From: Galbibacter orientalis DSM 19592
GTDB taxonomy: Bacteria > Bacteroidota > Bacteroidia > Flavobacteriales > Flavobacteriaceae
NCBI RefSeq assembly: GCF_000260115.1
Contig: NZ_JH651379.1
Location: 1,116,001 to 1,180,000, forward strand
Direction: 5' to 3'
Length of the DNA: 64,000 nt
Position numbers and translations under genes: made by a program. Shown here piece by piece: positions 3,632 through 44,269 of this stretch. Position 1 is the stretch's first letter, and each line of letters begins with the position of its first letter. The notes under the pieces are model-generated. The model saw nothing but the letters and a program-made list of their open reading frames with translations. It did no database searches and was not told where the DNA came from.

Positions 3632-4153
3632 ATGAACTGGTGTTTACTTATTCCATTAATAGTAGGCGTTATATGCGCAATTTTAGGTTATTTATTAGGG
3701 AGGTTATCTTCTGGAAATAATACTGCCGAGATTGAAGCTTGGCAAAAAAAATACGACAAATTGGAAGCCGACCTTACCGATTGTAGGTCTAAATTGGCAG
3801 CCAAACCTAGTCCTTCTGTAAGTTCAAAAACTGAAAACACAACTTTAAATTTAATTCCATTTGATGCTGCATTAGCTAAGGCTACTTATGGGAAAAAAAT
3901 AAAACAAGACGACCTTAAAATTGTGGAAGGAATAGGGCCTAAAATTGAACTATTATTTCACGCTAAAGGCATTACCACTTGGAAAGGACTTTCTGAGTGT
4001 AGTGTAGAAAAATGTGAAGAAGTTTTAAAATCTGGTGGAAAGGCATACGAAATACACAAACCTGGAACTTGGCCAAGACAAGCACAATTAGCTTACGAAG
4101 GGAAGTGGGTAGAGTTACATGCTTGGCAAGACGAGTTGAAAGGCGGAAAATAA
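3632..4153 (+). CDS. Membrane-anchored helix-hairpin-helix-like small protein
   Basis: This protein of 173 residues has one N-terminal transmembrane helix (about 4-24, ending in the glycine-rich GYLLGRLSSG), a short predicted coiled coil (about 33-57), a low-complexity linker, and a C-terminal domain with the helix-hairpin-helix-like motif KIVEGIGPKIELLFHAKGI. That domain ends in PGTWPRQAQLAYEGKW, a block seen in many Bacteroidota hypothetical proteins described as Flap-endonuclease-like HhH proteins. Such a domain usually touches DNA or mediates protein contacts. The membrane anchor makes a DNA role uncertain. Its pairing with an OmpA-like gene suggests an envelope job. Confidence 0.6.
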   Translation: MNWCLLIPLIVGVICAILGYLLGRLSSGNNTAEIEAWQKKYDKLEADLTDCRSKLAAKPSPSVSSKTENTTLNLIPFDAALAKATYGKKIKQDDLKIVEGIGPKIELLFHAKGITTWKGLSECSVEKCEEVLKSGGKAYEIHKPGTWPRQAQLAYEGKWVELHAWQDELKGGK

Positions 4154-4172
4154 ACTAACCAACTTAAAAAAT

Positions 4173-4209
4173 AAAAGGTTCTCTTTTTTCTAAAAGGAGG
4201 ATCTTTTTT
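4173..4209. terminator. Bidirectional intrinsic terminator
   Basis: An 11-bp stem pairs AAAAGGTTCTC (4173-4183) with GAGGATCTTTT (4197-4207), with two G-U pairs. It is flanked by A and T runs on both sides and lies between two convergent genes. Confidence 0.6.
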
Positions 4210-34413: not shown

Positions 34414-34501
34414 AGAGAGGTGGCCGAGTGGTCGAAGGCGCACGCCTGGAAAGTGTGTATACGTCAAAAGCGTATCGAGGGTTCGAATCCCTTCCTCTCT
34501 G
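34414..34501 (+). tRNA. tRNA-Ser(GGA)
   Basis: The acceptor arms AGAGAGG (34414-34420) and CCTCTCT (34494-34500) pair fully and are followed by discriminator G. The anticodon GGA is at 34448-34450 in loop CTGGAAA, with stem CACGC/GTGTG. A long variable arm, TATACG/CGTATC-type, confirms the serine class, and the T loop is TTCGAAT. CCA is not encoded. It reads UCC and UCU codons. Confidence 0.95.
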
Positions 34502-39935: not shown

Positions 39936-41369
39936 CTAAAATTCGGCGTTTTGTGGTGTTCTAGGGAAAGGAATTACGTCTCTAATGTTTGTCATTCCTG
40001 TTGCAAATAACACTAAACGCTCAAATCCAAGTCCGAATCCACTGTGTGTTGCCGTCCCAAATTTTCTAAGTTCTAGGTACCACCAAAGCTCTTTTTCATC
40101 AATTCCCATGGCTTCCACTTTTTCTTTTAAAACATCATAACGTTCTTCTCTTTGGGCGCCACCAACAATTTCTCCAATACCAGGGAAGAGAATGTCCATT
40201 GCTCTAACCGTTTTCCCATCTTCATTGGCTCTCATGTAAAAAGCCTTTATGTCTGCAGGGTAATCAAATAAAATTACTGGAGTTTTAAAATGTTTCTCTA
40301 CAAGATAGCGTTCATGCTCACTTTGTAAATCCGCACCCCACTCTTCAATAATATAGTTGAATTTTTTCTTTTTATTAGGCTTAGAATTTTTTAATATTTC
40401 TATAGCTTCTGTATAGCTTACACGCTTAAAGTTGTTGTCTATTACAAAATGTAGCTTTTCTGTAAGCGTCATTTCACTTCTTTCTGCTTGCGGCTTTGTT
40501 TTTTCTTCTTGTAATAAACGTTGCTCTAGAAATTCTAAATCATCTTTACAGTTATCTAGCGCATATTTAATGACATACTTTATAAAATCTTCAGCAAGAT
40601 CCATATTGCCGTCTAAATCTAGAAAAGCAACTTCTGGTTCAATCATCCAGAATTCTGCCAAGTGTCTAGAAGTATTTGAGTTTTCTGCTCTAAAAGTAGG
40701 GCCAAAAGTATAAACTTTCCCTAATCCCATTGCATATGTTTCGGCTTCTAATTGACCAGAAACGGTAAGATTTGTCTCTTTTCCGAAGAAATCTTCTTTA
40801 AAATCAATTTCTTTGTTATCTGTGAGCGGAGGGTTTTTAATGTCTAGCGTAGAAACTCTAAACATTTCTCCAGCGCCTTCAGCATCAGAACCTGTAATAA
40901 TAGGGGTGTGAACATAATTAAACCCATTCTGATTGAAATATTGATGTACAGCAAACGATAAAGAAGAACGAACACGCATAATAGCACTAAAAGTGCTTGT
41001 TCTAACTCTAAGATGCGCTTTCTCTCTAAGGAATTCTAAGGAGTGCTTTTTTGGCTGGATGGGATATTCTTCCGGATTAGATTCTCCTAAAATAGCAATG
41101 TCTTTAACTTGGATTTCTACATTTTGCCCTTTTCCTTGGCTCTCAACAAGTGTTCCGTTTATGCTAACTGCTGCTCCAGTATTAAGTTGTTTTAATATTT
41201 TTTCTGAAATATTTTCAAAGTCAACAACACATTGAATGTTATTTATTGTGGAACCATCGTTTAGTGCAATAAAACGGTTGCTTCTAAAAGTTCGAATCCA
41301 TCCTTTAACGCTAACTTCTTGAAGTAATTTCTCACCACCAAGCAGTTCTTTAATGTTATCTAATTTCAT
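39936..41369 (-). CDS. asnS: Asparaginyl-tRNA synthetase
   Basis: The protein of 477 residues has the N-terminal OB-fold anticodon-binding domain ([20 protein letters not shown]) and the class II catalytic core. Class II motif 2 is seen in [20 protein letters not shown] and motif 3 in [16 protein letters not shown]. The Asn-type features ([20 protein letters not shown]) set it apart from aspartyl enzymes. It charges tRNA-Asn in the cytoplasm. A TATCTTTG promoter box sits 29 bases upstream. Confidence 0.97.
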
Positions 41370-41397
41370 TATGGGTTACATCAAATAATTGTGGGCA

Positions 41398-41405
41398 CAA
41401 AGATA
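41398..41405 (-). promoter_or_regulatory. Candidate -7 box for asnS
   Basis: On the minus strand TATCTTTG matches TAnnTTTG, 28 bases before the asnS start. No TTG with normal spacing is seen. Confidence 0.45.
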
Positions 41406-41624
41406 AAATTTTAAACCTATTAATTATAAGCATTGTAGCTTTGATTCTTAAAAATATTTGTACCATAACATTATTCTTTTGTTAAATGCAAGAAAATTAA
41501 ATATTAATGATGTAGAACAAATCAAATTTTTTCGTACATTTAACATAAGCTTATAAATTTTAAGATAATTTTTGTAGGATAAAAAAAGGGATAAAAACCC
41601 TTTTATGCTATTATATTAATTTGA

Positions 41625-41632
41625 TATATTTG
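41625..41632 (+). promoter_or_regulatory. -7 box of the candidate small RNA
   Basis: TATATTTG is an exact match to TAnnTTTG and lies 7 bases before the proposed RNA start. A TTG at 17-23 bases upstream is not seen. Confidence 0.45.
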
Positions 41633-41638
41633 TAGAAA

Positions 41639-41748
41639 ATAGTGCATACGCTGTCTTAAAAGACACAATAAAAATATATAAGAATGTAGGTTTGGGGGAA
41701 CCTTAAAGTCTGTTCGGAAACTTTGTTTTCGGCAGACTTTTTTTTGTA
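41639..41748 (+). ncRNA. Candidate structured small RNA
   Basis: A TATATTTG box (41625-41632) predicts a start near 41639. The following 110 bases hold three hairpins in a row: TGTCT-TAAA-AGACA (41652-41665), AGGTT-TGGGGG-AACCT (41688-41703) and a long intrinsic terminator (41705-41740) ending in eight T. The only in-frame ATG is followed at once by a stop (ATG TAG at 41685), so it does not encode a peptide. The flanking genes are both on the minus strand (asnS and the MMPL gene) and start or end away from it. This is an independent transcript by all visible signs. Family unknown. Confidence 0.5.
41705..41748 (+). terminator. Terminator of the candidate small RNA
   Basis: AAAGTCTG (41705-41712) pairs with CAGACTTT (41733-41740), the stem continues inward with TCGGAAA and TTTTCGG through one bulge, and a run of T follows. 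No protein gene on this strand precedes it. Confidence 0.8.
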
Positions 41749-41780
41749 AATACATTATGATTAAATGATTATCTAAAGTA

Positions 41781-41815
41781 AAATCCCCATTTGATGCTAA
41801 TACAAATGGGGATTT
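41781..41815 (-). terminator. Terminator of the MMPL transporter gene
   Basis: AAATCCCCATTTG (41781-41793) and CAAATGGGGATTT (41803-41815) form a perfect 13-bp stem. The T tract on the minus strand is short (TTTTACTTTA). It is 25 bases after the gene's stop. Confidence 0.65.
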
Positions 41816-41839
41816 ATTGGTATAAATTTTTAATATATT

Positions 41840-44224
41840 TTATTCTTTACTGCTTTTGGGAAGTACATCTATATTTGGCTTTTTAAGCACTTGCTTGTTT
41901 GCAATATTTCTTTCTAAAGCCAATAATAATGCAGGAAGAAGTATTAAATTGGCTAGCATGGCAATTAAAAGTGTAAAGGAAACTAAGCCTCCAAGAGCTT
42001 TTGTGCCTCCAAAACTACTTAGCATAAATACAGAAAATCCAAAGAAGAGTACAATAGAAGTATAGAACATACTAACGCCTGTTTCGCGTAGGGCATTATA
42101 AACAGATTTTCTAATGTTCCAGTGACTTTTTGTAAGTTCTTGTCTATACTTTGCTAAGAAGTGAATGGTATCATCCACAGAAATTCCAAAAGCTACACTA
42201 AATACTAAAATAGTTGAAGGTTTAATAGGAATTCCTAAAAAGCCCATCATACCAGCAGTAATAATAAGGGGTAATATATTTGGAATTAGTGAAACAATAA
42301 TCATTTTAAAAGACCTAAACATATAGGCCATAAAAAGAGAGATAAGGAAAATAGCCAATGCTAAAGACATTACTAAATTCTTTACCAAATACTTTGTTCC
42401 TTTCATAAAAACCAATGCTTTTCCTGTTAATGTAACGTCATATCTGTCTTGAGGTAAAACTTTGTGTATTTTTTTCCATAAATCTGCTTCTATGCCTTCC
42501 ATTTTATCGGTACCTATGTCCTGCATAAAAGTGGTAATTCTAGCTATTTGTCCTGTAGAGTCCACAAAACTCTTAAGTAAATCTGCGTTATTAGCCGATT
42601 TTTTTGCGTAAGAAAGGATAAAAGTATTTTCCTGATTATTTGGTAATTGGTAGTAATTTGGATTTCCGTTGTAATATGCCTGTTTGGAGTATTTTACCAA
42701 GTTGGTAACAGAAATAGGATCGGAAAGTTCTGGAATTTCTTTTATAAGGGTTTCCAACTCTTCCATTCTACGAAGTGTGGTAAGTTTTAAAACCCCATTT
42801 TTTCTTTTGGTGTCTACCATAATTTCAACAGGAAGGATTCCGTCAAATTCTTTTTCAAAAAAGCGAATATCATCAAAAAAGGCAGCATCTTGAGGCATGT
42901 CTTCTATTAAACTCCCTGAAATTCTAATTTGGTATATTCCGATAATGCTACCAATTAAAGCTATTAACGATATTATAAACACAGCTATTCTATGGTTACG
43001 AACCGAATTTTCCATCCATCCTACAAAAGTGTTGATCCATTTTGTGTTTAGGTGCTTTAAATGCTTCGTTTTAGGTAGAGGCATAAAGCTATAGATAATT
43101 GGAATTATCAGTAACGATAAAACAAAAATTGCAAAAATGTTTAGAGAGGCAACAATACCAAATTCTTTTAAAAGTTTACTTTCAGTAATAATAAAAGTAG
43201 CAAAACCAGCTGCTGTGGTAATGTTGGTCATTAATGTTGCATTACCTACATTTGAAATTACCCGCTGTAAAGACTTTGCTTGATTTCCATGTTTTTGAAC
43301 TTCCTGCTGATACTTATTAATGAGGAATATACAGTTGGGAATCCCAATTACAATTATTAAAGGAGGGATCAATGCTGTTAAAACGGTAATTTCATAGTGT
43401 AATAAACCTAAAATCCCAAATGCCCACATTACACCTATAATTACAACTATCATGGAGATAAAAGTTGCTCTAAAGGATCTAAAAAAGAAAAAGAAAATAA
43501 GAGAGGTAACTCCTAAGGCAGCGCCAATAAACATACTAATTTCGTCTATGATACTTTGAGAGTTTAAAGTTCGGATGTATGGCATTCCAGATACTTTAAC
43601 ATCCAGTCCAGTTTTAGCTTCGAAATCGTCTATTAATGGTTCAAAATCATTAATTACAAAATCTTTTCGAACACTGGTGTTTACTATTTCTTTATCAATA
43701 TAAATAGCAGTTCTTATAGTGTGTGTTTTTTTATTGAAAAGTAAACTTTCGTAAAATGGGAGTTTTAAGAAAAGTTCATCTTTAATGCTGTCTACTTCAG
43801 CTTTATTCTTTAATTCGTTTTTAATTAAAGGTTCTAATTCAAATTGGTGTTTTTCGGTATTTTTTACGAGTTTTTGGAGGCTTTCTGTAGAAATAACTGC
43901 ATCAACTTCTGGTTTTGCTTGAAGTTGTTTGCTTAATTTATTCCATTCGTTAAAATTTTCTGGAGTGAATAAATTACTGTCTTTTACAGCAATTATAATT
44001 AAATTTCCTTCTTCGCCGAAAGTATCTAAAAATTTATTGTACTCAACGTTAACAGGGTGATGGTCTGGGAGTAAATTTGCTTCGGTAAAAGTAAAGCGCA
44101 TGTTTTTCCATTGCATGGCTAGAAAAACAGTGATTCCAAGAAGAATCAATAAAATAATAATACGATTGCGGAGAATTATTCTCGCCGTTTTCTTCCAAAA
44201 GCCTTTACTGATCTTGTTTATCAT
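41840..44224 (-). CDS. RND-superfamily (MMPL) membrane exporter
   Basis: With the ATG at 44224 the protein has 794 residues; a TTG three bases earlier is less likely. It is built as two repeats, each with one transmembrane helix, a large periplasmic loop (about 45-220 and 430-610), and a bundle of five or six helices (LIFFFFFRSFRATFISMIVV, PPLIIVIGIPNCIFLINKYQ; then FLISLFMAYMFRSFKMIIVS, FGISVDDTIHFLAKYRQEL). The SVDDTIH segment carries the proton-relay aspartates of the family. It resembles MMPL and sterol-sensing-domain-like exporters of lipids. The cargo is unknown. It is 46 bases downstream of the DUF5686 gene and likely co-transcribed with it. Confidence 0.85.
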   Translation of the reverse strand: MINKISKGFWKKTARIILRNRIIILLILLGITVFLAMQWKNMRFTFTEANLLPDHHPVNVEYNKFLDTFGEEGNLIIIAVKDSNLFTPENFNEWNKLSKQLQAKPEVDAVISTESLQKLVKNTEKHQFELEPLIKNELKNKAEVDSIKDELFLKLPFYESLLFNKKTHTIRTAIYIDKEIVNTSVRKDFVINDFEPLIDDFEAKTGLDVKVSGMPYIRTLNSQSIIDEISMFIGAALGVTSLIFFFFFRSFRATFISMIVVIIGVMWAFGILGLLHYEITVLTALIPPLIIVIGIPNCIFLINKYQQEVQKHGNQAKSLQRVISNVGNATLMTNITTAAGFATFIITESKLLKEFGIVASLNIFAIFVLSLLIIPIIYSFMPLPKTKHLKHLNTKWINTFVGWMENSVRNHRIAVFIISLIALIGSIIGIYQIRISGSLIEDMPQDAAFFDDIRFFEKEFDGILPVEIMVDTKRKNGVLKLTTLRRMEELETLIKEIPELSDPISVTNLVKYSKQAYYNGNPNYYQLPNNQENTFILSYAKKSANNADLLKSFVDSTGQIARITTFMQDIGTDKMEGIEADLWKKIHKVLPQDRYDVTLTGKALVFMKGTKYLVKNLVMSLALAIFLISLFMAYMFRSFKMIIVSLIPNILPLIITAGMMGFLGIPIKPSTILVFSVAFGISVDDTIHFLAKYRQELTKSHWNIRKSVYNALRETGVSMFYTSIVLFFGFSVFMLSSFGGTKALGGLVSFTLLIAMLANLILLPALLLALERNIANKQVLKKPNIDVLPKSSKE

Positions 44225-44269
44225 CAAAAAAAATTTCCATGCAAAGGTAAAGAACCTCTGCGAATGTGC

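Follow-up and report, generated by a model that had tools for sequence, protein, structure and literature searches.

The interval between asnS and a transporter gene of the MMPL/RND type in Galbibacter orientalis DSM 19592 raises the question of whether it houses a small RNA gene and, if so, which regulator would switch this gene on and how its product would act. The window, as we call the whole stretch of 64,000 nucleotides analysed here, carries both neighbours on the minus strand: asnS (39936-41369; Pfam tRNA-synt_2 and tRNA_anti-codon domains), divergent from the candidate, and the transporter gene (41840-44227; Pfam MMPL), convergent with it. An earlier interpretation made from the letters of the DNA (the sequence-only reading) had placed a promoter box, three consecutive stem-loops and a strong terminator on the strand opposite to both genes, and the candidate does lie on the plus strand. 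The promoter box, TATATTTG at 41625-41632 of this strand, can be read directly; it is retained in related loci, is a -7 box of the Bacteroidetes type TAnnTTTG, and is absent from the list returned by a sigma-70 promoter scan. The claim that no reading frame is present also held, as the sole ATG (41684) is followed by TAG and GTG or TTG starts open frames of at most eight codons. An inverted repeat at 41781-41815 (AAATCCCCATTTG...CAAATGGGGATTT) may serve to terminate transcription of the minus-strand transporter gene.

The predicted RNA spans 41637-41745 of the plus strand, its start being placed from the box (within about 4 nt) and its end where the T-run finishes, with a conserved core at 41669-41745; it would be an independently transcribed, structured molecule with a predicted length of about 110 nt. 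The fold of 41637-41748 has an energy of -27.5 kcal/mol, compared with -18.4 (sd 2.7) for shuffled sequences (z -3.35), and none of 200 shuffles equalled it. Its most stable part is an intrinsic terminator with eight T after its long stem (41705-41745, plus strand), which bears out the strong terminator proposed earlier; a terminator scan of 1.4 kb returned this site and one other, with 0.4 expected. Upstream of it on the same strand lie the GGGG-loop hairpin AGGUUU-GGGG-GAACCU (41688-41703; AGGTT-TGGGGG-AACCT in DNA) and a weak 5' hairpin, GUCU-UAAA-AGAC (41653-41664; GTCT/AGAC in DNA). Of the three stem-loops originally proposed, the GGGG hairpin and the terminator proved to be conserved, but the sequence of the first hairpin did not: the 5' stems differ between species, and the minimum free energy fold has two weak stems where the earlier reading had one. 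The loop had been described as TGGGGG between AGGTT and AACCT, and this sequence is present, but the loop proper is GGGG, closed in the minimum free energy fold by a U-G pair, because in the three of 21 aligned rows where the base 3' of GGGG is A the pairing with the opposite U is kept.

The small RNA matches no Rfam family. At gathering score, Rfam 15 identified only a tRNA (34414-34501) in the window, and a low-stringency search of 41370-41840 gave nothing near the cut-off. Identification as 6S RNA, a riboswitch or a leader peptide was set aside, there being no Rfam match, no downstream gene on the plus strand and no frame. By BLAST, the core was found in all seven genomes of the genus Galbibacter/Joostella, and the RNA also occurs in Kordia, Robertkochia, Sinomicrobium and Leptobacterium. 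An exact hairpin pattern (GTAGGTTTGGGGRAACCN{3,8}YCYG), run on a collection of 84,980 species genomes, matched 28 stretches: nine in Kordia, seven in Robertkochia, five in Galbibacter, two each in Sinomicrobium and in Flavobacteriaceae with no genus name, and one each in Leptobacterium, Joostella and Phycisphaerales, the last of which (L157) looks like a chance match. A covariance model had matches at E 0.01 in 71 of 397 family genomes, of which 16 were accepted because the fetched match retains GTTTGGGG[GA]AAC, a count that leaves out loci L056-L062 and rows with no locus. Seven inspected lower-scoring matches (L046, L048 and L051-L055) consisted of a terminator only and were dropped; genomes G101 and G147, missed by the model, were both found by the promoter pattern. 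In its own genome (G000) the RNA has one convincing copy by the model, the next match (E 0.003) being a terminator. Second copies away from asnS are present in Galbibacter sp. EGI 63066 (L135, of the loci L135 and L136) and Robertkochia marina (L155 and L160, of the loci L153-L155 and L160), and genome G228 has two model matches (L040 and L134).

The covariance search of relatives, a check proposed in the sequence-only reading, thus found the stems conserved, where their lack of conservation would have spoken against an RNA. The strength of this result depends on the alignment. In alignment A3 (21 loci), which was fitted to the covariance model and so leans towards it, double changes occur at 10 of the 13 terminator pairs and at one pair of the near-invariant GGGG hairpin, with 34 double-change cells against 7.5 in shuffles. 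The result is weaker in the unfitted alignment A1 (11 sequences), where double changes are seen at only two pairs and 160 of 500 shuffles show at least as many, although the double-change cells (six) and the percentage of paired positions are above all shuffles. The element UUUGGGG is near-invariant among the loci. The 5' end has the sequence CTATTAATCAAT in several other genera, where it is mostly predicted to be unpaired and is a possible second contact site.

The suggestion that placement beside asnS might be conserved was borne out as well: of the 53 loci tested, some of which were fetched twice, 46 have asnS, the transporter gene or both beside the RNA, asnS being the only such neighbour in L014 and L144. 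Of the seven loci with neither neighbour, L008/L135, L155 and L160 are second copies, L121 and L127 have diverged, and L157 is the apparent chance match. The transporter gene was found in 38 of 41 family genomes. Among 30 fetched loci in which asnS and the transporter gene adjoin, only those of G000, G002 and G027 carry the RNA; the spacers of the other 27 have neither a palindrome scoring above 13.0 nor an RNA-like motif (the TTGGGG seen in L302 and L305 lies where the transporter gene ends), and therefore the gene is restricted to a clade at an otherwise conserved junction. An interpretation as a mere terminator, or as a fold that arose by chance and does not function as an RNA, which would suit the dominance of the terminator in the fold and the terminator-only matches of the model elsewhere, is hardly credible, since asnS is divergent and thus no other plus-strand gene needs a terminator here, the box, an upstream palindrome, their spacing and the GGGG hairpin are conserved, and those 27 spacers lack these elements. 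Judged by its conserved sequence, stems, promoter and placement beside asnS, the candidate put forward earlier is well supported, and we regard it as a real small-RNA gene of a family absent from Rfam, transcribed, as we infer, from the box described above.

The regulator of this gene may be indicated by the palindrome AGGGATAAAAACCC (41587-41600, plus strand), which has the form GGGGA-N4-TCCCC, often GGGGAAAAACACCC in Galbibacter, and is proposed to be the site of a LuxR-type response regulator on the grounds of its constant place before the -7 box and of matches in two-component clusters. Its first base lies 38 nt before the box here and 37-38 nt before it in all 15 loci in which the search rule recognised both elements, out of 21 examined; of the remaining six, L045 has a variant that escaped this rule, L002 and L007 have decayed forms, and L005, L040 and L050 have none. 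Among 27 loci of named genomes (L157 left out), 19 score above 20, L136 and L161 have decayed palindromes in the same place, and six, from G. marinus, R. sediminum and R. marina, have none. The spacing was again 37-38 nt in all 18 named-genome loci whose palindrome is strong and whose box is regular, a set that is not independent, as several of its loci come from genomes that trained the scoring matrix. If transcription begins a few bases downstream of the box, the centre of the palindrome would lie near -44, a usual place for an activator.

A first pattern for the palindrome, RGGGAWWWWHMCCC, gave 61 matches in G000 compared with nine for the reversed control, and was rejected since most of the contexts viewed belonged to an unrelated interspersed repeat, which ends in GGGGAATAAAACCCTCAATGAGGGATTTAA and occurs genome-wide (e.g. 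L070-L089). A pattern combining palindrome and box matched 75 of 199 family genomes, and its reversed control also matched often. Twelve places, picked from its matches by eye for symmetry, included two small RNA genes at asnS (L124, L125), two genes resembling the small RNA (L121, L127), one kinase gene (L120) and two occurrences of a small-protein gene (L122, L128), the others not being convincing. In the latter two (from G116 and G036, respectively), GGGGAAATTTCCCC and a -7 box directly precede frames of about 37 amino acids with a hydrophobic segment, alike in both genera, which are possibly a further gene of the same regulon.

The genome of G. orientalis encodes, outside the window, a cluster consisting of a 128-amino acid small protein, a protein with seven transmembrane segments (7TM), a HisKA_3 histidine kinase (G000:C1:3348695-3349468) and a LuxR-type regulator with REC and GerE domains (gene at L285:3981-4625). 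Clusters of this composition are conserved (L163, L285 and L286-L297), with a small protein that has no Pfam match (or a lipoprotein-like one), a 7TM protein likewise lacking a Pfam match, a kinase and a regulator, and often adjoin a gene that we take to resemble pxpC. In G. marinus, the palindrome and the box stand before the histidine kinase gene, which is followed by the gene of the LuxR-type regulator. A matrix built from the 15 small RNA palindromes was run over 14 two-component clusters, picked partly for having a palindrome or the RNA, with 20 shuffles of each, and its best site exceeded all 20 shuffles in 12 of them. The scores (highest shuffle score in parentheses) were 21.7 (17.3) in G002, 25.6 (19.0) in G000, 25.4 (14.0) in G116, 25.4 (17.0) in G036, 18.8 (14.2) in G182, 29.8 (14.0) in G184, 29.8 (12.9) in G082, 25.1 (12.8) in G101, 19.7 (12.9) in G147, 22.1 (16.3) in G148, 23.0 (15.8) in G027 and 20.7 (14.9) in G153; the clusters of G062 and G146 had no site above their shuffles. 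The position of the site varies: that of G000 shares bases with the end of the 7TM gene, that of G147 falls within the reading frame of the kinase, and in G116 and G036, which represent two further genera, it belongs to an abutting gene resembling the small RNA (palindrome, box, UUUUGGGGC and terminator). A looser motif was present within 1.5 kb upstream in seven of the 30 best kinase loci. In a pattern search of the seven genus genomes, a blinder test than the 14 clusters, ten matches were obtained, compared with four for the reversed control, and comprised four promoters of the small RNA (G000, G003, G004, G005), three kinase promoters (G002, G004, G006; identified by tblastn) and three others. 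A kinase with 56% identity or more to the query was found in six of 199 genomes, including the query's own, and all six carry the RNA; because kinship confounds this co-occurrence, no p-value is given.

At the level of sequence, then, the GGGGA-N4-TCCCC palindrome is shown to be common to the small RNA promoter and the two-component cluster, and we infer that the regulator of the cluster binds and activates both. A different regulator might bind the palindrome of a genuine small RNA gene and also happen to control the cluster. This is unlikely: it would account for the clusters of G153 and G182, which have the palindrome and in which the RNA was not found, and the sequence is the sole link between the two promoters, but the palindrome accompanies the cluster across many genera, and two-component systems commonly regulate themselves. 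A circuit leading from the two-component system of the cluster to the small RNA thus seems probable.

As to how the RNA would act, L125 keeps UUUGGGG without the GGGG hairpin, L121 and L127 keep the G-run as UUUUGGGG, also without it, and L124 has UUGGGG in another, compensated hairpin (GTAAGTT-GGGG-AACTTAC). As the G-run is retained in all of these loci, and in L125 and L121/L127 without this hairpin, it points to pairing by the G-run. A different use of the element, under the same two-component control, would be binding of a protein, with the GGGG hairpin serving as a decoy or scaffold in the manner of RsmY and RsmZ and not as an antisense element. The near-invariance of the element in both sequence and hairpin would agree with this; nevertheless, we consider it improbable, as CsrA (PF02599) was not detected in the own genome (its profile matched in three of 14 control rings), the RNA lacks an AnGGA loop motif, and a G-run that outlasts its hairpin suits pairing better than recognition of a shape. 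The profile of Hfq (PF17209), which matched in five of 14 control rings, likewise gave no match in the own genome.

The absence of a recurring target among the complements in the genus speaks for protein binding. The C-rich target envisaged in the sequence-only reading was sought through these complements, and no conserved one emerged. The pattern TYCCCCAAAC had 151 matches in the seven genus genomes, including the RNA's own complement, compared with 92 for the reversed control. In G000, 20 of 21 complements were fetched, of which 15 are antisense to a frame, three lie within a frame and two do neither. Among the 98 distinct sites viewed in the genus, ten are non-coding by the rule applied (one being the complement of the RNA itself in G001, and two sharing a locus), and no gene was seen to recur, as judged by eye. 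One of the own-genome sites, L230, is a lead: the C-rich loop of an intergenic, terminator-like hairpin carries the complement of the GGGG element twice in tandem and is predicted to form 16 pairs with the RNA at -25.6 kcal/mol; among 3000 random windows, the top 1% start at -18.3 and the best value is -33.1, in a pool that includes the window and the L230 site. No similar hairpin was present among the sites from other species, its tandem neighbour has no complements, and Rfam returned nothing relevant for it. This loop belongs to one of four tandem transcript-like units between two AraC-type genes (L284, 3500-4250, minus strand, with a candidate partner transcript at 3940-4190; G000:C1, approximately 1780000-1780750), which have a GGTTAGTT motif in common ahead of their terminator-like hairpins. 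Pairing as the mode of action is weakly supported, as is any particular target.

Several known systems offer parallels. In pseudomonads, RsmY and RsmZ are activated by GacA and have an upstream palindrome for this LuxR/FixJ-type response regulator. The RNA described here resembles them in having a palindrome, putatively for a LuxR-type regulator, upstream of its promoter, and a hairpin loop containing G; as regards activation by such a regulator, what was observed is a palindrome in common with the cluster. In contrast to RsmY and RsmZ, it has, by sequence and fold, a single G-run loop instead of several GGA loops, a different palindrome and a promoter of the Bacteroidetes type, in a genome where CsrA/RsmA was not detected. 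The Qrr RNAs of vibrios and the CiaR-controlled csRNAs of streptococci are small RNAs whose synthesis is controlled by a two-component regulator and which target other RNAs in trans, and both properties would be shared by the present RNA. Qrr RNAs need sigma-54 and Hfq, whereas here the box is of the TAnnTTTG type and Hfq was not detected; a relation in sequence was compared through Rfam only. Within the same bacterial family, Rfp18 of Flavobacterium psychrophilum is (PMC9723704) a structured small RNA with a known phenotype, conserved across a genus and bearing a stem-loop for which pairing with mRNAs is predicted. The present RNA is likewise structured and conserved across a genus. Identity with Rfp18 looks unlikely, since none of the 28 stretches matching the exact hairpin pattern is in a record named Flavobacterium. 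Full-text literature searches found no paper on a small RNA in Galbibacter and none combining a flavobacterial response regulator, a small RNA and a palindrome; broader searches, covering such parts of the papers as were accessible, gave nothing on this subject.

The reading that we favour, with reasonable though far from complete confidence, is that the locus encodes a small RNA of about 110 nt, that the palindrome of its promoter is bound by the LuxR-type regulator of the two-component cluster, and that the RNA acts in trans via UUUGGGG. In response to a signal, this regulator, most likely that of the own-genome cluster, would bind 38 nt before the -7 box and raise the expression of both its own cluster genes and the small RNA, which would then act through UUUGGGG, most likely by pairing with a C-rich RNA and without Hfq. 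A wider proposal is more tentative, and we would not yet bet on it: the RNA may be the output of an undescribed flavobacterial system, self-regulated via GGGGA-N4-TCCCC, that switches on a GGGG-loop small RNA in a genome that yielded no match to CsrA or Hfq; in G. orientalis itself, the L230 RNA may be a further partner, met through the tandem complements. To our knowledge, the regulator is known for few small RNAs of Bacteroidota, and this locus would offer a testable circuit that runs from kinase and regulator genes through a DNA site to an RNA with a near-invariant motif. A conserved small RNA with a G-run, in a genome in which neither Hfq nor CsrA was detected, may thus open the way in which such RNAs find their targets there to direct study.
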